From Pyrinomonadaceae bacterium (lineage in GTDB: Bacteria; Acidobacteriota; Blastocatellia; Pyrinomonadales; Pyrinomonadaceae): DNA of 16,065 bases. The DNA lies in the NCBI GenBank assembly GCA_013813825.1, contig JACCRA010000452.1:1-16065 (forward strand), read 5' to 3'. The translations under genes and the position numbers were made by a program. The notes beneath the pieces were generated by a model. That model had not been told where the DNA came from and ran no database searches. It worked only from the letters and a program-made list of their open reading frames with translations. Below are positions 5,007-13,186 of the stretch, piece after piece; position 1 is the stretch's first letter, and every line of letters begins with the position of its first letter.

Positions 5007-6077
5007 ATGAACTCAAAAACAATTCCGTCAACCGACAAAACTGCTTTACATCACGACACGTTGCTTTCGATTAAAGACCTCCGTACCTACTTCCAGACCG
5101 AAGACGGAGTAGTGAAGGCCGTGGACGGAGTCAGCTTTGAGCTGAAGCGGGGCGAGACACTGGGCATCGTCGGCGAATCAGGCTCCGGCAAGTCGGTCAC
5201 GAGTTTGTCGGTGCTTCGCTTAATCCCACAACCGCCGGGCCGGATCGTGTCGGGCGAGATTTTTTTCGCCGGCCAAGACATCCTCAGCCTGCCGTTCAAA
5301 GAGGTGCGAAAAATTCGCGGCCGACGCATCAGCATGATCTTCCAAGACCCGATGACTTCGCTCAACCCGTTCATGCGAATCTCGCGGCAGTTAATGGAGA
5401 TCACCAAACTTCACCTCGGCCACACGAAAGCTCAAGCTTACAAGCACGCGATTGAAATGCTGGAACGGGTCGGCCTGCCGGACGCGAGCACCCGCGCGGA
5501 CAATTATCCGCACGAGTTTTCGGGAGGAATGCGCCAGCGTGTGATGATCGCGATGGCACTTTCATGTGAGCCGGAGTTGCTGATCGCCGACGAGCCGACG
5601 ACCGCTCTTGACGTGACGATTCAGGCGCAGATTCTTGAATTGATCAAAAACCTCAAAAGCAAAACCGGCGCCAGCGTGATTCTCATCACACACGACCTCG
5701 GCATCGTCGCCGGGATGACCGATCACATAGTTGTGATGTACGCCGGCAAAGTTTTCGAGCAGTCGCCGACGCGCGAACTGTTTGCCCGCCCCGGCAACCC
5801 CTACACCAAAGGATTACTACGCTCGGTACCTGCTCCGGCTCGTGTCGATGGGGAAGAGTTGTACCAGATTCCGGGATTGCCGCCCGATGTCGCGCACTTG
5901 CCGCCGGGCTGCCCGTTCGCCCCGCGTTGCGAGCGCGCCGAAGAGATTTGCCGGCGCGAACTTCCTCCCTTGGTGCAACTGACACCTGATCATCACTCGC
6001 TCTGCCACTTCGCGGAAGACGTGTATGCACAATCTCGCCGCGAGCGCGAAACACGCGCCGGCATTTCCGTGCCGTAA
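5007..6077 (+). CDS. oppD: Oligopeptide ABC transporter ATP-binding protein OppD/DppD
   Basis: Cytosolic ATPase subunit that powers peptide import, working as a heterodimer with OppF. About 356 residues. Walker A is GESGSGKS (56-63), the Q-loop lies in [10 protein letters not shown], the ABC signature is SGGMRQR (172-178) and Walker B is [12 protein letters not shown] with Asp195-Glu196. The switch His is in ITHDLG. The C-terminal oligopeptide-transporter extension contains four cysteines (302, 308, 315, 333) in a CPFAPRC arrangement, which in characterised DppD relatives binds an Fe-S cluster. The first 18 residues are poorly conserved and no Shine-Dalgarno sequence is evident before 5007, so the start is only moderately certain. 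oppF follows after 24 bases. No permease genes lie on either side, unlike the usual oppABCDF order. Confidence 0.92.
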
Positions 6078-6101
6078 CCTTCGACAAGAGGCCATCACCT
6101 G

Positions 6102-7262
6102 ATGAGCACGCAATTTTCACACACCGATCAACCTCCCCAGCCCTTCTCGCCGGGTATCACGCCGATTGGCGGCGCCGAGCCTTTAATGTCGATCCGTGAT
6201 CTCAAGGTTCACTTCAAGCAGGCCGGCGGATCACTGTGGGATCAATTCGCTGGCAGCGCCAGAAGTGTCAAGAGAGTAGTAAAGGCTATCGATGGAGTTT
6301 CACTCGACATCTTTCGTGGCGAGACGTTCGGGTTAGTGGGTGAATCCGGCTGCGGAAAATCCACGCTGGGGCGTGCCGTGCTCCGCCTGATCGAACCGAC
6401 CGGCGGTCAGGTCTTCTTTCGCGGGAGAGACCTTGCGAGTCTCTCCACGCGCGAGTTGCGTCAACAACGTCGCCACTTGCAAATGATCTTTCAAGACCCC
6501 TTCTCATCTTTGAATCCTCGGATGACAGTCGGACAGATCGTCGGAGAGCCTTTCGAGGTTTTCAAACTGGCGCGCGGCGGCGACAAGGACAGGCAAGTCA
6601 ATGCACTGTTAGAAACAGTTGGCCTGAGCCAACGCTTCAATAAAAGATTCCCGCACGAATTTTCCGGCGGACAGCGGCAGCGCATCGGGATCGCCCGCGC
6701 GCTGGCCGCCAACCCGGATTTTATTGTCGCCGACGAGCCGATCTCGGCGCTCGACGTTTCCATCCAATCGCAGATCATGAATTTGTTGGAGCGTCTCCAA
6801 CGCGAACGGAATTTGACTTACCTCTTCATCTCGCACGATCTGCGCGCCGTGCGGCATCTCTCCGACCGTGTGGCTGTGATGTATTTGGGGAAGATCGTCG
6901 AACTGGCCGCCGCCAAAACTCTCGCCGATGAGCCGCTGATGCCTTACACGAAGGCATTAATTTCAGCCGTCCCGATTCCCGATCCTGAGATCGAAGCGAA
7001 ACGCCGGCGCGTCGTGCTGGAAGGCGACGTGCCTTCCGCCATCAACTCGCCGTCCGGCTGTCGCTTTCATACCCGATGCCCTTACACCGTCCAAGCTTGT
7101 CGGGAAGTTGTGCCGCAACTAATCGAAATTAAACCTGACCATTTCGCCGCTTGCATCCGCATCAGCCCCGCTCAGCCTGACATCACTCAAGTTGCGCCGG
7201 ACGCTGTGCCGGGCTTAAATCACGAGGCGCTTGAATGCACCGTGAAAGTTGTCGCGCATTGA
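6102..7262 (+). CDS. oppF: Oligopeptide ABC transporter ATP-binding protein OppF/DppF
   Basis: Second ATPase subunit of the peptide importer, partner of OppD. 386 residues. Walker A is GESGCGKS (80-87), the Q-loop is in [10 protein letters not shown], the signature is SGGQRQR, Walker B is [12 protein letters not shown] and the switch His is in ISHDLRA. The oligopeptide-type C-terminal region also has four cysteines (CRFHTRC, then a further Cys each in QACR and AACI), echoing OppD. An insertion (roughly residues 41-60, GSLWDQFAG and following) between the first strands and the P-loop is typical of OppF rather than OppD. The ATG at 6102 has AGAGG about 10 bases upstream. About 25 Pro-rich residues precede the ABC domain. 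It ends the peptide-transport cluster, with 244 bases before the next gene. Confidence 0.92.
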
Positions 7263-7344
7263 CAATATAATTACAACGACAGGAACATTATTGGGACAAT
7301 TAAAGGCCGTAAAGTGAGAATGCTAATCCCGACAACTTAAAAGC

Positions 7345-7373
7345 TTGTACGAGGCCCAGCAGACTCTTATACT
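7345..7373 (+). promoter_or_regulatory. Candidate sigma-70-type promoter upstream of the diguanylate cyclase gene
   Basis: TTGTAC (7345-7350) and TATACT (7368-7373) are separated by 17 bases. The -10 element is a near-consensus match, the -35 only partial. It lies in the 244-base gap after oppF and would give a leader of about 125 bases before the ATG at 7507. A perfect TATAAT also occurs at 7266-7271 but has no matching -35 at a proper distance. The rest of the gap shows no gene. Confidence 0.3.
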
Positions 7374-7506
7374 GCGGCCGAGGGCGTATCTCTAACTATT
7401 CCGCACGGTGGCTCGACCAATCTAGAGCCTCGCACCGTTGCCGAGCCTTGCCTAAGAGGATTCGGCCCGCCCTCTCACACTGATTTCCGCATCGCAGCAC
7501 TACAAA

Positions 7507-9579
7507 ATGGAAAAGATGGTCGCCGCCGAGCGCGTCACAGACGAGGAAGAGTTGGCGTCGCCCACCCCAACGTGGGTGGCGGCACAGGAGTCCGCCGCGC
7601 GGGAAGCCGGACTTTCCGTGCTTCTCATTGCAGGGCCTCAACCGCCGCAATTGGCTGAATCAAACAATAATTCGATCTGCAAATCATTTCAGTCTTCTCC
7701 GTCTCATGCACAACTGTGTGAACCATTTTGTGGCGAGGCGTTCGCGCGCGCTCAAGCGGCCGGCGAGGCCGTCTATTATCGTTGCCACGCCGGCTTGCAC
7801 TGTTTCGCAATGCCGGTTCAGCACGGAAGCGAGCGCCCATCGCTGGCAGTTATCGGCGGACGCGCCTTTCTCTCCAGCGCGGATTACCGTCGATTAGTTG
7901 AGCGTTTTCGCGACGGTGACTTGCAGTCGTTGTGGTCTCCTGGATTGTTAAATAACGTCATTTTTTCGACCCCGGGTGGATTGGAAAAATTGGTTGCGCT
8001 CCTCTCCTCTGAAGCCGCCAAAGGAAAGCCGCCGCCGCCTGCTTCGACAGCGACGACGGAAGAGCCGCCGCCGAAAGCGGAAACGCACGGAGCAGTCACC
8101 GCGCAGCTTCACGGCAATTCGCACGCGATCAGGCAATCGTTGCGTGAGTCCTGCCAACACGCGCTATCAATTCTGAAGTCGGAATACGGCGTCGAGACGG
8201 CGGCCTTGATCTTTCGCGTCGACGAGAAGTTTGTGCGCTTGGGAGTACGCGGCGGAATCGACGCGCTGGCCGCCATCGTCTGCGAGCGCCTGAATGGCGG
8301 AGCTTGGCCGGAGTTGAGAGGGCGGGAAGCAATCCATCAGTCGCCGTTATCGCTCACTTTTCAGGGAGGGCAGGCAGAGGTATTCCCGCTCACCGTGGGC
8401 GGCGAGTTGCGAGGCGCTCTGGTCGTCGGGCGGGCGCCGTTAAACGCCACTGTGCGGGCGTCCGTCGTCGAATTTTGCGAGGCTCATGTTCTGCCGCTGG
8501 AAGTCCTTAGACTGCGCGAAGAATTACAGCGGCAGTTGCTGGCCGCGCACCACCTCCAATCTTTCTCCGCGGTCTTGAACGCCGTCGAGCCGGAAGAGGC
8601 GTACTCGACGATTCTTCGCCACTCGGTGGAATTGATGCGCTCGGAGCGCGGTTCGCTGATGTTATTCGACGAGGGGGCGAACGAGTTGAAAGTGCAGGCG
8701 GCCATTGGTCCCCGCGCCGAAGTCGCCCAAAAAATGCACCTCAGTCTCGATGCCAGTTTGTGTGGCGCGGTCTTGAACGACGGCCGGCCGCTGGTCGTGA
8801 AAAACCTCCGCGCCGCGGGGCACGCGCCTGCTCCCGCTGACAGAAATTATAAGTCTGATTCGTTCATCAGCTACCCGATCATCATCGGCGGGCGAAGGAT
8901 CGGCGTGCTGAACATGACCGATAAACTCAGCGGCGAAGTGTACGATGATCTGGACTTAAATCTGCTCGAACTCATCGCCCCGCAACTCGCTCTCGCGCTT
9001 GATCGCGCGTCGTGGCATCAGAAGGCAACTCAGTTTCAACTATTGTCGATCACCGATCCGCTGACCGGTTTAGTCAACCGCCGGTACATGGAGGAGCGAC
9101 TCGCGGAAGAGGTCGAACGCACGAAGCGCCATCACTTTGAGATGAGCTTTTTGATGTTGGACATCGACCATTTCAAGCTCTACAACGACCGGCAAGGCCA
9201 TCAAGCCGGCGACCTCGCGCTGGAAATGACGGCGCAATGTCTGAAGTCGGCGCTCCGCACCGAGGATGTCGCTTCGCGCTATGGTGGTGAAGAGTTTACC
9301 GTCCTGTTACCACAGACGAGCATCGGCGAGGCGTGTGTCATCGCCGAGCGCATTCGCCGCCGGGTCGAGCGCACCCAATTTGTGCACGGCGAGACGCAGC
9401 CGCACCGGGCGCTCACGGTGAGTATCGGCATTTCCGCTTTCGGGGCGGAACTCGAAACCCCGTCGGCGATCATCGGCGCCGCGGATCAGGCTCTCTATGC
9501 CGCGAAAAGACGCGGTCGAAATTGTGTGGACATTTTCGGCCACCAACCCATCTCCCCCCCCATCCCTCATGCCGACTGA
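7507..9579 (+). CDS. Diguanylate cyclase with PocR-like, tandem GAF and GGDEF domains
   Basis: 690 residues, no signal peptide or membrane segment, so cytosolic. Residues ~30-170 resemble the PocR ligand-sensing domain: LCEPFCGEAF, then YRCHAGL (Cys93) and FAMPV, IGGRAF, with further cysteines at 58, 71, 75 and 99. A Pro-rich linker (~175-195) follows. A divergent GAF-like region spans ~205-325 and a clear GAF domain ~350-505. The GGDEF domain (~515-680) has DPLTGLVNRR, DIDHFKLYND and the active-site motif GGEEF (593-597), so it should make cyclic-di-GMP from two GTP. The RxxD inhibitory site (Arg584-Asp587) sits exactly five residues before it, predicting product feedback. The ATG at 7507 lacks a clear ribosome binding site, and Met4 (7516) is an alternative. 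The 3' end overlaps the next gene by 11 bases, implying joint translation with the kinase-like protein. Confidence 0.88.
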   Translation: MEKMVAAERVTDEEELASPTPTWVAAQESAAREAGLSVLLIAGPQPPQLAESNNNSICKSFQSSPSHAQLCEPFCGEAFARAQAAGEAVYYRCHAGLHCFAMPVQHGSERPSLAVIGGRAFLSSADYRRLVERFRDGDLQSLWSPGLLNNVIFSTPGGLEKLVALLSSEAAKGKPPPPASTATTEEPPPKAETHGAVTAQLHGNSHAIRQSLRESCQHALSILKSEYGVETAALIFRVDEKFVRLGVRGGIDALAAIVCERLNGGAWPELRGREAIHQSPLSLTFQGGQAEVFPLTVGGELRGALVVGRAPLNATVRASVVEFCEAHVLPLEVLRLREELQRQLLAAHHLQSFSAVLNAVEPEEAYSTILRHSVELMRSERGSLMLFDEGANELKVQAAIGPRAEVAQKMHLSLDASLCGAVLNDGRPLVVKNLRAAGHAPAPADRNYKSDSFISYPIIIGGRRIGVLNMTDKLSGEVYDDLDLNLLELIAPQLALALDRASWHQKATQFQLLSITDPLTGLVNRRYMEERLAEEVERTKRHHFEMSFLMLDIDHFKLYNDRQGHQAGDLALEMTAQCLKSALRTEDVASRYGGEEFTVLLPQTSIGEACVIAERIRRRVERTQFVHGETQPHRALTVSIGISAFGAELETPSAIIGAADQALYAAKRRGRNCVDIFGHQPISPPIPHAD

Positions 9580-11836
9580 AACCCCCGATCAACACCCTCA
9601 TTTCAAACGTGTGCTCGGACGCATTCCCCCCAACGATTTCGTTGGACGGAGCGTCGAACTGCAAGAGATCGTCAGCCTCGCTCCCGATTCCGCGCGCCGG
9701 CGCGGCTTGCTCGTGCTCTCCGCGCCGGCGTCCGGCGTCACTGAGCTGTTGCGCCAAGCCTACGACAAACTTTTCGCCCAACGCGGCGAAGCGACGCCGA
9801 TCTACTTCTCTTGGTCTCATTCCGTTGACACCGTCTTAAACTCGGCGCGCCAGTTTCTACACGCGTTTCTCTCACAGTTCATCGCCCACCGGCGCGGCGA
9901 ACCGCGGCTCGTCAATTCGCCGCTGCCCGTCCATGAACTAGCCGAGCTGGCCATCCCGGCGGACGCCGGGTGGATCCAAAAATTAATCGGAAATTACGAA
10001 CGCGCGCGGGGCGATGAAAACGCGCTGGTGCGCCTCTGCCTGAGCGCGCCGCAGCAAGCCGCCGCGCACGGATCCCGCACCTTAATCTTGTTCGACGACA
10101 TGCACGCCATCGACGAGTTAAAAGGCGACGTTGATCTGCGAATTGAGAGCGCGCGATTGTCAGTTGCGAATGCCGGGACGCAGTTCGTCTATGCCGGCTT
10201 ACGCCGTCGGTTGCTCGACGTGCTGAACGGGGAGTCATCCGCTCACCGGCTGGACAATTTCGGGACGCTGCACGTGGATGGCTTAAACATGCGAAACGCG
10301 CGCATCCTCATCGAGCGCCTTGCCTTCTCGCTACACGTCCCGCTCAGCGACGAGTCGCGCGATCTGCTCGCCCAACAGTTCTCCGGTAACCCGTTATTGC
10401 TGTCGTTGTACTTGCAAGCGGCGCACAATAAAAGCATCGAATTGGAGACTTATCTTGATTGCCAGCGGTTGTATGTGGACGAACTGCTCGGCGGGCGTCT
10501 CCACCGACGGCTCAATGTGGTGCTCGAAAATATCGCGCCAGCGGTCTCGCTGCGGCGCGGTTTACTCCGCGCGTTGCACGAATCGTCTTTAACGAGTGTT
10601 ACGAAAACTCCGGCCGAGGCGTGGCGCAAAAAGCTCGATCTCGACCCCGGAGAGTTTGACAACCTGATGACGCGGCTGCACGCCTATGAATTGGCGAGCT
10701 ATACCGCAACTTTTTTGGAGATCACTGCTTGCGCCGTTTGGCGCGACTACCTGCGCGCTAACTACCGCCTGCAAATCAGCGCCGAGCCGCGCGCCCTCGT
10801 CGTCGCCGAAACACTAACGGAGACTCTTAAGCGGGCTCCGCAAACAATGGCGCGCCAGTACCGACGCGAGAGCGCCCTCGGTTTGCGCGAATTGCTCGCG
10901 CGCTTCGATCACCAGCGCGTGCCGGCGAGTCTCTTTCATTTTGAAAAGTTCACGAGCTTGTATCTTGGTCTGCAACCCGAAGAAGTGGTCGCGACGCTTG
11001 ACGCCGAGTCCGAGTTGTTACGCTTGCCGCAGGTCATCCACACAGCCGCGGGCGGCTCTTTCCATGCGCCGATGCGGCAGGTGAGCGACGAGGAGCGGTG
11101 CGCCGTCGCCCACGGCTTCGACACGAACGGATACACGGACGCCGGCGAAGTCGTTTGGGTGGCGGCCGAGATCGAGTCGAAAGTCGAGGCCGGGCGGGCG
11201 ATCACGGAAGTCTGGTGCGAGCGACTCAAACTACTGGCGCAGGCGTGCGGGTTTCGCCGGGTGCGGTTCTGGCTGGTCGCGCCCGAAGGTTTTACAGCCG
11301 AAGCCGGAGAGTTGCTGACCCGGCGCGAGGTGTTAAGCTCCAATCGGCGGCAACTGGAAATGCTTACCGTCCGGCTGTCGCCGGCGGGAGCGGCGGACAA
11401 AGCGGCCGAGACTTCCGCCGCGCCCGCCAACGAATTCGAGATGGTGATTCCGATGGGCGGCGACACCGAGTTGATCGCCGCGCAGGCGGTCGAGCAGATC
11501 GCGCGACGTTTGAATTTTCAACCCGAGGCTATCAACCAGATCAAGACCGCCCTCATCGAAGCCTGCATCAACGCAACCGAGCACAGCCTCAGCCCGGATC
11601 GGAAAATTTACCAGCGTTTTCGCATCGAAGATGATAAGTTAGTGATCATCGTATCGAGCCGGGGCGTGGGTGTCCCTACGCCGCTGTCCGCCGTGTCGAA
11701 CGGCGAAGGCAGTGAGTCCGCCAAAGGTCGGCGGGGCTGGGGACTGAAATTGATCCGCGCGTTAATGGATGAGGTCGAGTTCGAGCGCGTGGACGACGGC
11801 ACCCGCCTCCGCATGGCGAAACACCTCCGCCCGTAG
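9569..11836 (+). CDS. STAND/AAA-like NTPase region fused to an RsbW-like GHKL (anti-sigma kinase) domain
   Basis: 755 residues from the ATG at 9569, which overlaps the cyclase stop by 11 bases. An upstream in-frame start at 9497 would lie wholly inside the cyclase gene and is less likely. Residues 24-27 are FVGR, the usual opening of STAND/AAA modules. A Walker-A-like segment (51-61, SAPASGVTELL) has Val57 where Lys is expected. Walker B is LILFDD (Asp176-Asp177), and GNP at 273-275 resembles the GxP motif of STAND proteins. Residues ~515-600 may be a nuclease-fold-like region (Asp524, Glu536, Lys538). The C-terminal ~645-755 is an RsbW/SpoIIAB-type ATPase with the N-box EACINATEH (Glu664, Asn668), the G1 region VSSRGVG (Ser697 at the usual Asp) and the G2 box GRRGWGL (720-726). 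Probably a multidomain serine kinase or switch acting on the STAS protein encoded 16 bases downstream. The exact role is unknown. Confidence 0.75.
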   Translation: MPTETPDQHPHFKRVLGRIPPNDFVGRSVELQEIVSLAPDSARRRGLLVLSAPASGVTELLRQAYDKLFAQRGEATPIYFSWSHSVDTVLNSARQFLHAFLSQFIAHRRGEPRLVNSPLPVHELAELAIPADAGWIQKLIGNYERARGDENALVRLCLSAPQQAAAHGSRTLILFDDMHAIDELKGDVDLRIESARLSVANAGTQFVYAGLRRRLLDVLNGESSAHRLDNFGTLHVDGLNMRNARILIERLAFSLHVPLSDESRDLLAQQFSGNPLLLSLYLQAAHNKSIELETYLDCQRLYVDELLGGRLHRRLNVVLENIAPAVSLRRGLLRALHESSLTSVTKTPAEAWRKKLDLDPGEFDNLMTRLHAYELASYTATFLEITACAVWRDYLRANYRLQISAEPRALVVAETLTETLKRAPQTMARQYRRESALGLRELLARFDHQRVPASLFHFEKFTSLYLGLQPEEVVATLDAESELLRLPQVIHTAAGGSFHAPMRQVSDEERCAVAHGFDTNGYTDAGEVVWVAAEIESKVEAGRAITEVWCERLKLLAQACGFRRVRFWLVAPEGFTAEAGELLTRREVLSSNRRQLEMLTVRLSPAGAADKAAETSAAPANEFEMVIPMGGDTELIAAQAVEQIARRLNFQPEAINQIKTALIEACINATEHSLSPDRKIYQRFRIEDDKLVIIVSSRGVGVPTPLSAVSNGEGSESAKGRRGWGLKLIRALMDEVEFERVDDGTRLRMAKHLRP

Positions 11837-11852
11837 AAGGGACCAAACACTG

Positions 11853-12251
11853 ATGACGTTGCCTTCCGTTTCTCCGGTGCGATCAGCGCGGATTGGGAAC
11901 GTCGCCGTGATCTACGCTAGCGACTATTTGAACCGTTTCAACGGCGAGCGCCTCGAACGTGAGTGCCGCCTGCGCTTGGGCGAGGGCTGCCGCGCTCTCG
12001 TGGTTGACTTCAGACACACAGATTTAGTGAACAGCATCGGCGTCTCAATGTTACGGGGCGTGATCGACGTGGCGGAAAAGGCCGGGGCCCGGCTCATTTT
12101 CGCGGACGTGAACGGTCAGGCGGCACAGCTATTTGAGTTGCTTGGGCTGATGCGTGACGTCGCGCTCGCGCCAAACGAACAGGCCGCCCTCACCTTACTC
12201 GCTGAATCCGAGACGACCACGACCGCCGACACAACTCCTCATAGCGACTGA
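11853..12251 (+). CDS. STAS-domain anti-sigma-factor antagonist (RsbV/SpoIIAA-like)
   Basis: 132 residues forming a single STAS domain: a VAVIY strand, then LVVDFRHTD, the phosphoacceptor loop VNSIGVS, and the C-terminal helix region LFELLGL. Ser61 occupies the position of the Ser that RsbW/SpoIIAB kinases phosphorylate (DS in the classical proteins), but the preceding Asp is Asn60. Such proteins bind an anti-sigma kinase when unphosphorylated and release its partner. The ATG at 11853 lies 16 bases after the kinase-like gene, with AGAAGG about 11 bases upstream. A longer frame from 11769 would run through the kinase 3' end and is rejected. The C-terminal ~15 residues are Thr-rich and probably disordered. 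It is the likely direct partner of the GHKL domain encoded upstream. The following ferredoxin gene is convergent. Confidence 0.85.
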   Translation: MTLPSVSPVRSARIGNVAVIYASDYLNRFNGERLERECRLRLGEGCRALVVDFRHTDLVNSIGVSMLRGVIDVAEKAGARLIFADVNGQAAQLFELLGLMRDVALAPNEQAALTLLAESETTTTADTTPHSD

Positions 12252-12284
12252 ACTGATACCCCGGAGTCATGTCGGACGCCCGAT

Positions 12285-12587
12285 TTACGTCTGCGCTGGG
12301 CCTTTGCAGGTTGGTCCCATCAGAGCTTCTTTCTTCAGACTGATCACCGGATAGTTGGGCGCTTCGTCGATATTGAGGGCGATCCACTCCTGAAACTCTT
12401 CCGGCACTGCCGCCTCCGCGAAGATCGCCTCGACCGGACACTCCGGCACGCAGGCGTCGCAGTCGATGCACGTCTCGGCGTTGATGTAGAGCCGATCCGG
12501 CAACTCGTGAAAAGCCTCGACCGGACAGACGCCCGCGCAGTCCGTGTACTTACAATCAACACACGCCTCAGTCACGATGTAAGTCAT
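12285..12587 (-). CDS. fdxA: Seven-iron-type (3Fe-4S/4Fe-4S) ferredoxin, FdxA-like
   Basis: Small cytosolic electron carrier of 100 residues, close to the ~107 of the family. The start MTYIVTEACVDCKYTDC is diagnostic. By comparison with Azotobacter ferredoxin I, Cys9, Cys17 and Cys50 should ligate a 3Fe-4S cluster. Cys21, Cys40, Cys43 and Cys46 should ligate a 4Fe-4S cluster. Cys12 is extra and could allow a second 4Fe-4S cluster instead. The family cysteine after CPV (CPVDC in relatives) is Ala here. The C-terminal half is acidic (EEFQEW and following), as usual. Three ATG codons occur in a row. The third (12587) is chosen because GGGAG lies six bases upstream of it. It is monocistronic, with its own likely promoter at 12636-12663. 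The redox partner is not identifiable from the window. Confidence 0.92.
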   Translation of the reverse strand: MTYIVTEACVDCKYTDCAGVCPVEAFHELPDRLYINAETCIDCDACVPECPVEAIFAEAAVPEEFQEWIALNIDEAPNYPVISLKKEALMGPTCKGPAQT

Positions 12588-12593
12588 CATCAT

Positions 12594-12598
12594 CTCCC
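12594..12598 (-). promoter_or_regulatory. Ribosome binding site of the ferredoxin gene
   Basis: GGGAG on the minus strand, immediately followed by three consecutive ATG codons. Its six-base spacing to the third ATG (12587) selects that codon, matching the usual MTY start of the family. Confidence 0.6.
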
Positions 12599-12635
12599 AA
12601 TTCGCAACAGATAAGATCAAGATTACAACAGTGCT

Positions 12636-12663
12636 TTTATGGCAGAGCGTGGAAGATTGTCAA
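12636..12663 (-). promoter_or_regulatory. Sigma-70-type promoter of the ferredoxin gene
   Basis: On the minus strand a perfect TTGACA (12663-12658) is followed after 16 bases by CATAAA (12641-12636), a four-of-six match to the -10 consensus. The predicted transcription start is about 40 bases before the ferredoxin ATG. It lies in the 155-base gap downstream of the HNH gene, so the ferredoxin need not depend on read-through. Confidence 0.5.
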
Positions 12664-12742
12664 TCAAAGTAAGAGTAAGAGGGATGCACACCCGACTGCT
12701 ACCGCAGGCGATTCTGACCTGTACCCTCGATTTGAAATTGCT

Positions 12743-13186
12743 TTATGAACTTTCCCGCGGGTCTGCGAGGGGCGGATGGCGATTGATTGCGATGTCGTCT
12801 TGCCTGATGCGCTGAACTCTTTCGCGGTTTAGCTCAAGCCATTTGATGGTAACGTGACCGATGTCGCTTTGCGGTAGCACCCGCAAGCCGTCGGCAGACC
12901 AGATGAAATGTTCCGCCCAGAGCATTCGGCGCGGGTTGAAAAGCGGGATTACATTTTGGGTATCTGCGTCGAAGACGCTTTGTTTGTCCGACTTGTGACG
13001 GTTGCAATGAAAACAAGCCAACGCCAAGTTTTCCAAAGTATCGTCGCCGCCCTCTGAGGTGGGCAGGATATGATCAAGCGTGAAGGGCACGAGTTGCCAA
13101 TGCTCGTCGGTATGACAGTACTCGCAAAGGACGGCGGCGCGTTGCCGGACTTGCTCCCGAATGAACGGCGAGATTTTACGCGGCAA
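12743..13186 (-). CDS. HNH endonuclease
   Basis: 147 residues. The zinc-binding cysteines CEYC (21-24) and CFHC (58-61) frame the HNH core: LDH with Asp38-His39 as metal or general-base residues, SEGGDDTLENLAL with Asn53, then NRHK with Asn62 and His64. This is a complete beta-beta-alpha-metal nuclease motif, so a DNA-cleaving activity is likely. The C-terminal half (NPRRMLW, HFIWSADGL, LELNRERV) matches what I recall of a subfamily frequent in Cyanobacteria and environmental bacteria, which is not linked to introns or restriction genes. It starts at TTG (13186) with AGGA five bases upstream. The start overlaps the end of the upstream small gene by 11 bases, so the two are translated as a unit. 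Its biological role is not known to me. Confidence 0.85.
   Translation of the reverse strand: MPRKISPFIREQVRQRAAVLCEYCHTDEHWQLVPFTLDHILPTSEGGDDTLENLALACFHCNRHKSDKQSVFDADTQNVIPLFNPRRMLWAEHFIWSADGLRVLPQSDIGHVTIKWLELNRERVQRIRQDDIAINRHPPLADPRESS

Follow-up and report, generated by a model that had tools for sequence, protein, structure and literature searches.

A conserved cyclic di-GMP gene module of Pyrinomonadaceae, probably descended from a GHKL-STAS-PP2C partner switch

We analyzed a 16,065-nucleotide stretch of DNA (the window) from a Pyrinomonadaceae bacterium (assembly GCA_013813825.1, contig JACCRA010000452.1), in which three consecutive genes encode a diguanylate cyclase, a fusion of a STAND-type NTPase region with a GHKL domain, and a STAS protein (Table 1). 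In relatives, the usual module has a fourth gene, which encodes a GAF-HD-GYP phosphodiesterase, and the module as a whole probably derives from a GHKL-STAS-PP2C partner switch whose output was exchanged for cyclic di-GMP (c-di-GMP). An earlier note on this DNA had reported the three genes, with an 11-base overlap between the first two and a 16-base gap before the third, and all of this proved real. The spacing suggests a single operon; a promoter scan of positions 7200-12750 returned one promoter-like site, a number not above that in shuffled sequence, and the exact 11-base overlap was seen again in 6 of 24 other loci, with starts chosen by script.

Pfam was run on the 13 main open reading frames (ORFs) among the 39 listed for the window. 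In the cyclase it recognized PocR, one GAF and GGDEF (PF00990, 4e-49), so that the PocR-GAF-GAF-GGDEF arrangement previously proposed stands except for the first of its two GAF domains (residues 195-345), a region with no Pfam match in the window and, among three relatives tested, with a weak GAF_2 match in one (L036, E 0.0096). The GGEEF sequence in the GGDEF domain conforms to the GG[D/E]EF motif of diguanylate cyclases; across 53 readable loci the motif was GGEEF in 45 and AGDEF in 8 sister-family loci, and RxxD was present in all 53. The fusion protein matched HATPase_c_2 (4e-19) and, weakly and below cut-off, AAA_16, and structure prediction gave a STAND fold, in agreement with the STAND-like/GHKL fusion of the earlier note. 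Its STAS assignment also held (PF01740, with a sub-threshold STAS_2 match).

Table 1. Features of the module in the window (positions in the window)
Feature	Position	Strand	Remark
PocR-GAF-GGDEF diguanylate cyclase, 690 aa	7507..9579	+	Pfam and conserved position upstream of the fusion gene
RTED (I-site) and GGEEF active-site motif	9256..9297	+	read in translation
STAND-NTPase / PD-(D/E)XK-like / GHKL fusion, 755 aa	9569..11836	+	ATG at 9569
STAND NTPase fold, residues 17-408	9617..10792	+	structure prediction
Walker A site without Lys (APASGVT)	9722..9742	+	departs from GxxxxGK[S/T]
Walker B strand, Asp176 kept	10082..10099	+	Asp in 120/120 of the best homologues
Possible restriction-endonuclease-like (PD-(D/E)XK) domain	11012..11380	+	
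RsbW/SpoIIAB-type GHKL domain	11429..11830	+	
N-box EACINATEHS, E664 and N668 kept	11558..11587	+	
G1 box, Asp to Ser (SRGVG)	11657..11671	+	
STAS protein, 132 aa	11853..12251	+	Pfam STAS 7e-10
STAS Ser61 at the phospho-acceptor position (VNSIG)	12033..12035	+	aligned to the SpoIIAA DSSG motif
33 bases at the place of the GAF-HD-GYP gene that four relatives have ahead of the ferredoxin gene	12252..12284		gene absent here

Matches to the fusion protein below 1e-60 were found in 51 of 60 genomes of the window's family (f1; Pyrinomonadaceae, going by many named relatives) and in all 7 genomes of a sister family (f2), within a search of 97 genomes. A sample of the phylum (396 genomes, E 1e-15; group sizes taken from list order, with the last 272 non-matching rows not printed) gave 27 of 28 f1 and 3 of 3 f2 genomes; 74 of the other 365 genomes had matches, all of them restricted to the profile's GHKL end, from position 579 of 744 onward. 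The genomes counted include many draft metagenome-assembled genomes (MAGs), counts refer to loci or to genomes, and locus counts contain repeats, with at least L058/L099 and L059/L081 being the same contigs from two collections. One such MAG, labelled Deltaproteobacteria, carries the module on a 3.9 kb contig (L038) and is probably mis-binned Acidobacteriota. In three genomes (L069; L054, the same match as L027; and L072) the fusion gene lies in two frames, reflecting either assembly frameshift or real decay.

Gene order was read per genome in the 58 genomes with a fusion gene (G003, G039 and G049 by eye). In all 56 evaluable genomes the fusion gene was immediately preceded by the cyclase gene (the contigs of G016 and G043 end first), which rules out chance adjacency. 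STAS followed the fusion gene within 300 nucleotides in 46 of 56 (the contigs of G036 and G042 end), and in the other 10 it lay about 0.9 kb or further off, on another contig, or elsewhere. The GAF-HD-GYP gene came directly after STAS in 53 of the 54 genomes whose contig gives a view (leaving out G023, G036, G042 and G059), including all 10 displaced cases, and the sole exception was the window. The link of STAS to the phosphodiesterase is thus tighter than its link to the fusion gene. On the earlier note's own test, whether the three genes stay together in relatives, the cyclase-fusion pair held throughout and STAS stayed with it in most genomes; in the remaining ones STAS has moved away from the fusion gene together with HD-GYP. 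Within f1, an HD-GYP orthologue was found in 48 of the 51 genomes that have the fusion gene and in none of the 9 that lack it; those with the fusion gene but no such orthologue were G000, G036 and G042, and the contigs of the last two end at or within that gene. The HD and HHExxDGxGYP residues were intact in all 44 module loci. In L129 (3643-4665) and L130 (3678-4652), both of genus g8, a second GGDEF gene (127 bits) lies directly downstream of the fusion gene, and STAS was not seen within the 1.5 kb flank.

No PP2C gene was seen among the 13 window ORFs scanned or in the f1 and f2 loci, which were surveyed over about 1.5 to 10 kb of flanking sequence or as far as the contig end. The reported lack of a nearby PP2C therefore holds beside the module and does not extend to the genome: SpoIIE-family matches occurred in 97 of 97 genomes searched, with 7 in the window's own assembly.

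The fusion protein is altered at two nucleotide-binding motifs. The G1-box Asp of GHKL domains contacts adenine, and its loss usually abolishes ATP binding. This Asp was present in none of 56 readable fusion loci (Ser in 31, Asn in 25; one further row was unreadable) and in none of the best 120 of 1308 database homologues, all of which have Ser. Most fusion proteins have lost the second G1-box Gly as well, and directly after the position of the missing Asp stands Arg in f1 (48 of 48 readable loci) or Lys in f2 (8 of 8 loci). As a control, Asp was kept in 21 of 21 other RsbW-type GHKLs picked from weaker f1/f2 genome matches, 20 of them in genomes with the fusion gene and one of these the window's own. 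Of the 30 GHKLs read from PP2C modules outside f1 and f2, 29 have it too; the sole exception, L141, has Gly, and the search match there crosses a stop codon, so that this Gly may come from a misreading and need not mark a separate loss. As for the STAND region, the P-loop Lys was absent from all of the same 120 homologues and present in 8 of 54 readable loci, all of the sister family; as read from these alignments, it is lost in Pyrinomonadaceae. The f2 loci that keep it (L059, L080-L084, L086 and L087) have AGDEF instead of GGEEF in the cyclase. Given the lost G1 Asp and P-loop Lys, the labels "kinase" and "NTPase" in the earlier note are doubtful. The N-box Glu and Asn, the usual Mg-ATP residues, are retained in 55 of 55 readable fusion loci and in all 120 homologues, and Ser occupies the phospho-acceptor position of STAS in 79 of 79 loci.

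Outside f1 and f2, 30 GHKL loci were compared: 8 from another family of the same class (f3), 2 from f6 and 20 from other classes, the last drawn from 69 hit genomes outside the class and mostly top-scoring. GHKL and STAS are adjacent there, with a SpoIIE-type PP2C gene within about 500 nucleotides in 29 of the 30 loci and at a distance of 2.9 kb in L139, and no HD-GYP gene was found at these 30 loci by the profile used; the PP2C and HD-GYP profiles were built from 3 and 5 sequences, respectively. In the c-di-GMP module, the position of PP2C is taken by a protein that carries the phosphatase's first GAF and ends in an intact HD-GYP phosphodiesterase. This correspondence was assessed with a GAF profile built from f1/f2 HD-GYP proteins (44 loci with more than 180 residues ahead of the HD part). 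The first GAF of the module PP2C scored 102-125 bits in 11 loci (f3, 8 of 8; L132, L133 and L137), against at most 47 bits for all other GAFs in the tested loci, including 31-37 bits for f3 GAF-HD-GYP proteins; phosphatases of the remaining PP2C-module loci had no match this strong. A GAF-only profile was used because a full-length query favoured the f3 GAF-HD-GYP proteins (151-166 bits, mostly through the HD part) over the module PP2Cs (68-96 bits).

Across the 97 genomes at E 1e-12, the GAF profile matched the module HD-GYP protein in 48 f1 and 7 f2 genomes (207-294 bits, two being split into halves of 102-116 bits) and the module PP2C in each of the 8 f3 genomes (107-129 bits). Nothing else exceeded 70 bits, the next best match having 69, and weak second matches of 50 bits occurred in G007 and G056. 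Two other origins of the phosphodiesterase gene arrangement were rejected: recruitment of a ready-made GAF-HD-GYP gene, given the low GAF scores of the f3 proteins of that kind compared with the module PP2Cs, and relocation of PP2C with its GAF, given that no non-module protein passed 70 bits in any f1 or f2 genome. In a tree of joined GHKL and STAS sequences (63 rows; 65 loci passed the gap filter, identical rows were removed, and many f1 loci were filtered out), f1 and f2 formed one group (support 0.95) and f3 formed one group (0.96). Judging by the match between the GAF domains of the HD-GYP protein and the phosphatase, a phosphodiesterase has probably taken the place of the phosphatase as output, and descent of the c-di-GMP module from a GHKL-STAS-PP2C partner switch is highly likely on these comparisons. 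At L133 (3882-9111), and also at L132, GHKL, STAS, HAMP-SpoIIE and GAF-GAF-SpoIIE are encoded in one run, that is, as a two-phosphatase switch.

The window departs from its relatives in lacking the phosphodiesterase gene. In L032, L033, L034 and L056 the order is STAS, HD-GYP and, on the other strand, a ferredoxin gene; in the window the same ferredoxin gene stands 33 bases after STAS with HD-GYP missing between. A search of the rest of the window's own assembly (78% complete, 819 contigs) gave no orthologue and matched only other proteins, 6 of 7 over the HD region, so that either a clean loss or an assembly error has to be supposed. It appears that the window's lineage has lost the phosphodiesterase gene and retains the cyclase, the fusion protein and STAS; with the assembly at that completeness and in that many contigs, the absence of the gene is provisional.

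The reading we favour, with a probability of about 0.55, is that a partner switch has been turned to c-di-GMP control, with the STAND-GHKL protein, STAS, the GAF-HD-GYP protein and the cyclase as its parts. The module probably works without an ordinary phosphorylation cycle, and the chances that partners are exchanged without phosphorylation seem about even. The GHKL domain would serve as a docking face for STAS and no longer as a cycling STAS kinase, and the STAND body would present or hide this face on sensing its signal. STAS would act as a shuttle, bound to GHKL in one state and to the GAF-HD-GYP protein in the other, perhaps with the cyclase as a further partner; its docking would set the balance between c-di-GMP synthesis and breakdown, with signal input via PocR, GAF and STAND. 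A shuttling STAS is the simplest reading because the genes form two tight pairs (cyclase and STAND-GHKL; STAS and HD-GYP) that are found in the same genomes even where the pairs are not linked. As only the cyclase arm is left in the window, STAS may act there on the cyclase or on a distant partner. An additional idea, which we regard as a long shot, is that the GHKL pocket reads a guanine nucleotide or c-di-GMP, since the adenine-contacting Asp is replaced by Ser or Asn and followed by an invariant Arg or Lys; release of STAS would then report the messenger level. If true, a guanine-ligand GHKL would close a feedback loop that joins the cyclase with the HD-GYP phosphodiesterase.

Several observations weigh against the proposed switch. 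The N-box Glu and Asn and the STAS Ser are all invariant, and nucleotide may still be bound; invariance of the Ser and the Glu could result from binding alone, because RsbW Glu49 contacts RsbV Ser56 in the RsbV-RsbW crystal structure, as described in the available text of PMC7340262. Among the RsbV-binding residues of RsbW given in that text, Lys44 and Glu49 are kept as K659 and E664, and Arg23 aligns with Ala and Asp42 with Gln, so docking may differ. The four-gene model describes the window incompletely, since HD-GYP is missing there. In L045, a close relative, HD-GYP is present without the ferredoxin gene behind it, and the STAS-HD-GYP-ferredoxin junction is therefore not common to all relatives. 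Finally, related genomes do not provide independent counts.

The same invariant residues (E664, N668 and the STAS Ser) would suit an ordinary phospho-switch with scattered parts, in which GHKL phosphorylates Ser61 despite the Ser or Asn in its G1 box and a distant PP2C dephosphorylates it, as would the SpoIIE-family matches in every genome searched and in the window's own assembly. We nevertheless consider this unlikely, with the G1 Asp in 0 of 56 fusion loci against 21 of 21 other f1/f2 RsbW-type GHKLs, the second G1-box Gly gone in most, and no PP2C in the f1 and f2 loci surveyed. A tentative possibility is that cyclase activity is set by direct binding of STAS, in the manner of HsbA or SiaC, with HD-GYP as a separate companion. 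STAS or STAS-like proteins do control cyclases in Pseudomonas and Sinorhizobium (PMC8457831 and PMC5085249, in the portions available), the cyclase belongs to the operon, and in the window only the cyclase remains. However, where the module is split, STAS goes with HD-GYP in 10 of 10 genomes and the cyclase stays with the fusion gene in 9 of 9 evaluable ones (one contig ends; the loci include L042, L057, L100, L167, L168 and L031). Mere co-location or co-expression, with no exchange of STAS between partners among the c-di-GMP enzymes, is very improbable. Synteny alone is weak, since upstream transporter genes are conserved neighbours too, but the HD-GYP orthologue follows the presence of the fusion gene (48 of 51 against 0 of 9 f1 genomes), STAS and HD-GYP remain paired after relocation, and the GAF domain was kept through the exchange of PP2C for HD-GYP.

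Among known systems, the module shares with RsbW-type switches an RsbW/SpoIIAB-type GHKL, the N-box Glu and Asn, and a STAS protein with a phosphorylatable Ser. It lacks two defining features, the G1-box Asp and a PP2C encoded in the module, and is therefore better described as derived from that family than as a member. It differs from RsbU-RsbV-RsbW and SpoIIE-SpoIIAA-SpoIIAB in these two respects, and also in the fusion of GHKL to a STAND NTPase, in the c-di-GMP enzymes of its operon, and in having no sigma factor gene among the 13 window ORFs scanned.

Control of cyclases by partner switches has been described for HsbA-HsbD, SiaC-SiaD and BgrV-BgrR (available text of PMC8457831, PMC5085249 and PMC6482189; see also PMC7647112). 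As in HptB-HsbR-HsbA-HsbD of Pseudomonas aeruginosa, a STAS protein is linked with a diguanylate cyclase. HsbR is described as a response regulator with both phosphatase and kinase functions, and the accessible part of that paper (PMC5085249) mentions neither HD-GYP nor a STAND fusion; no HsbR-like receiver or PP2C domain was found in the three window proteins or in five HD-GYP proteins scanned. The module likewise resembles SiaABCD of P. aeruginosa and BgrR/BgrV of Sinorhizobium, in which a partner switch controls a cyclase. SiaC activates SiaD through direct binding (PMC8457831); according to the text available, it is a DUF1987 protein and not Pfam STAS, is phosphorylated by SiaB, and is described with no mention of HD-GYP or a STAND fusion. 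The window STAS protein had no Pfam match to DUF1987. The idea of a distinct cyclase-linked switch was supported, in that a diguanylate cyclase and a GHKL/STAS pair belong to one conserved module that has no neighbouring PP2C, although the earlier account did not include the HD-GYP gene, the descent from a GHKL-STAS-PP2C switch or the loss of the G1 Asp and P-loop Lys.

In other likenesses, the predicted fold of residues 17-408 resembles STAND/NLR NTPases (archaeal ATPases 2qen/2fna, CED-4 and plant NLRs), from which the protein differs in the missing P-loop Lys, in the window and close homologues, and in having a GHKL domain as output. A 2025 proposal holds that sensor domains are exchangeable among PP2C phosphatases, cyclases and histidine kinases via shared linkers (PMC12143880, available text). 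Moorella MtG, cited there, has the RsbU N-terminus on GGDEF under RsbT; it resembles the present case in placing a phosphatase sensor part on a c-di-GMP enzyme, and differs in its RsbT/stressosome setting and in using GGDEF instead of HD-GYP, with no kinase motif loss mentioned in that text. The term HD-GYP is absent from the main text of PMC12143880. A literature search for HD-GYP together with a STAS domain and a serine kinase gave no match, a single search of the open literature for Pyrinomonadaceae with c-di-GMP gave no paper, and a term search of a review of STAS-only proteins (PMC8256260) found neither c-di-GMP nor HD-GYP.

New here is the probable exchange of PP2C for HD-GYP, with a parallel change of the kinase motif, in a known kind of partner switch. 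It offers a phylogenetically bracketed case of an operon that keeps its binding pair and replaces protein phosphate by c-di-GMP as its currency, allows a test of whether partner switching requires phosphorylation, and provides a natural example of sensor-linker units moving between output enzymes, as set out in the available text of PMC12143880, extended to HD-GYP. The module is also a conserved candidate c-di-GMP hub for Pyrinomonadaceae, a soil family.

Outside the module, the Pfam scan covered ten main ORFs, among them peptide-transport, folate and CoA genes, the ferredoxin gene, a glycosyl hydrolase gene and a gene for an HNH protein. Upstream of the cyclase gene, at 5007-7262, are two genes for oligopeptide/dipeptide ABC transporter ATPases. 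The second of these was found upstream in 20 of the 21 f1 loci that reach that far (L056 lacks it), and at none of the f3 loci searched or the f2 loci, where the upstream sequence mostly spans about 2 kb; a functional tie between the module and peptide uptake is possible. At 217-1194 on the reverse strand, a copper-binding CusF-like domain is fused to SCO1/SenC.

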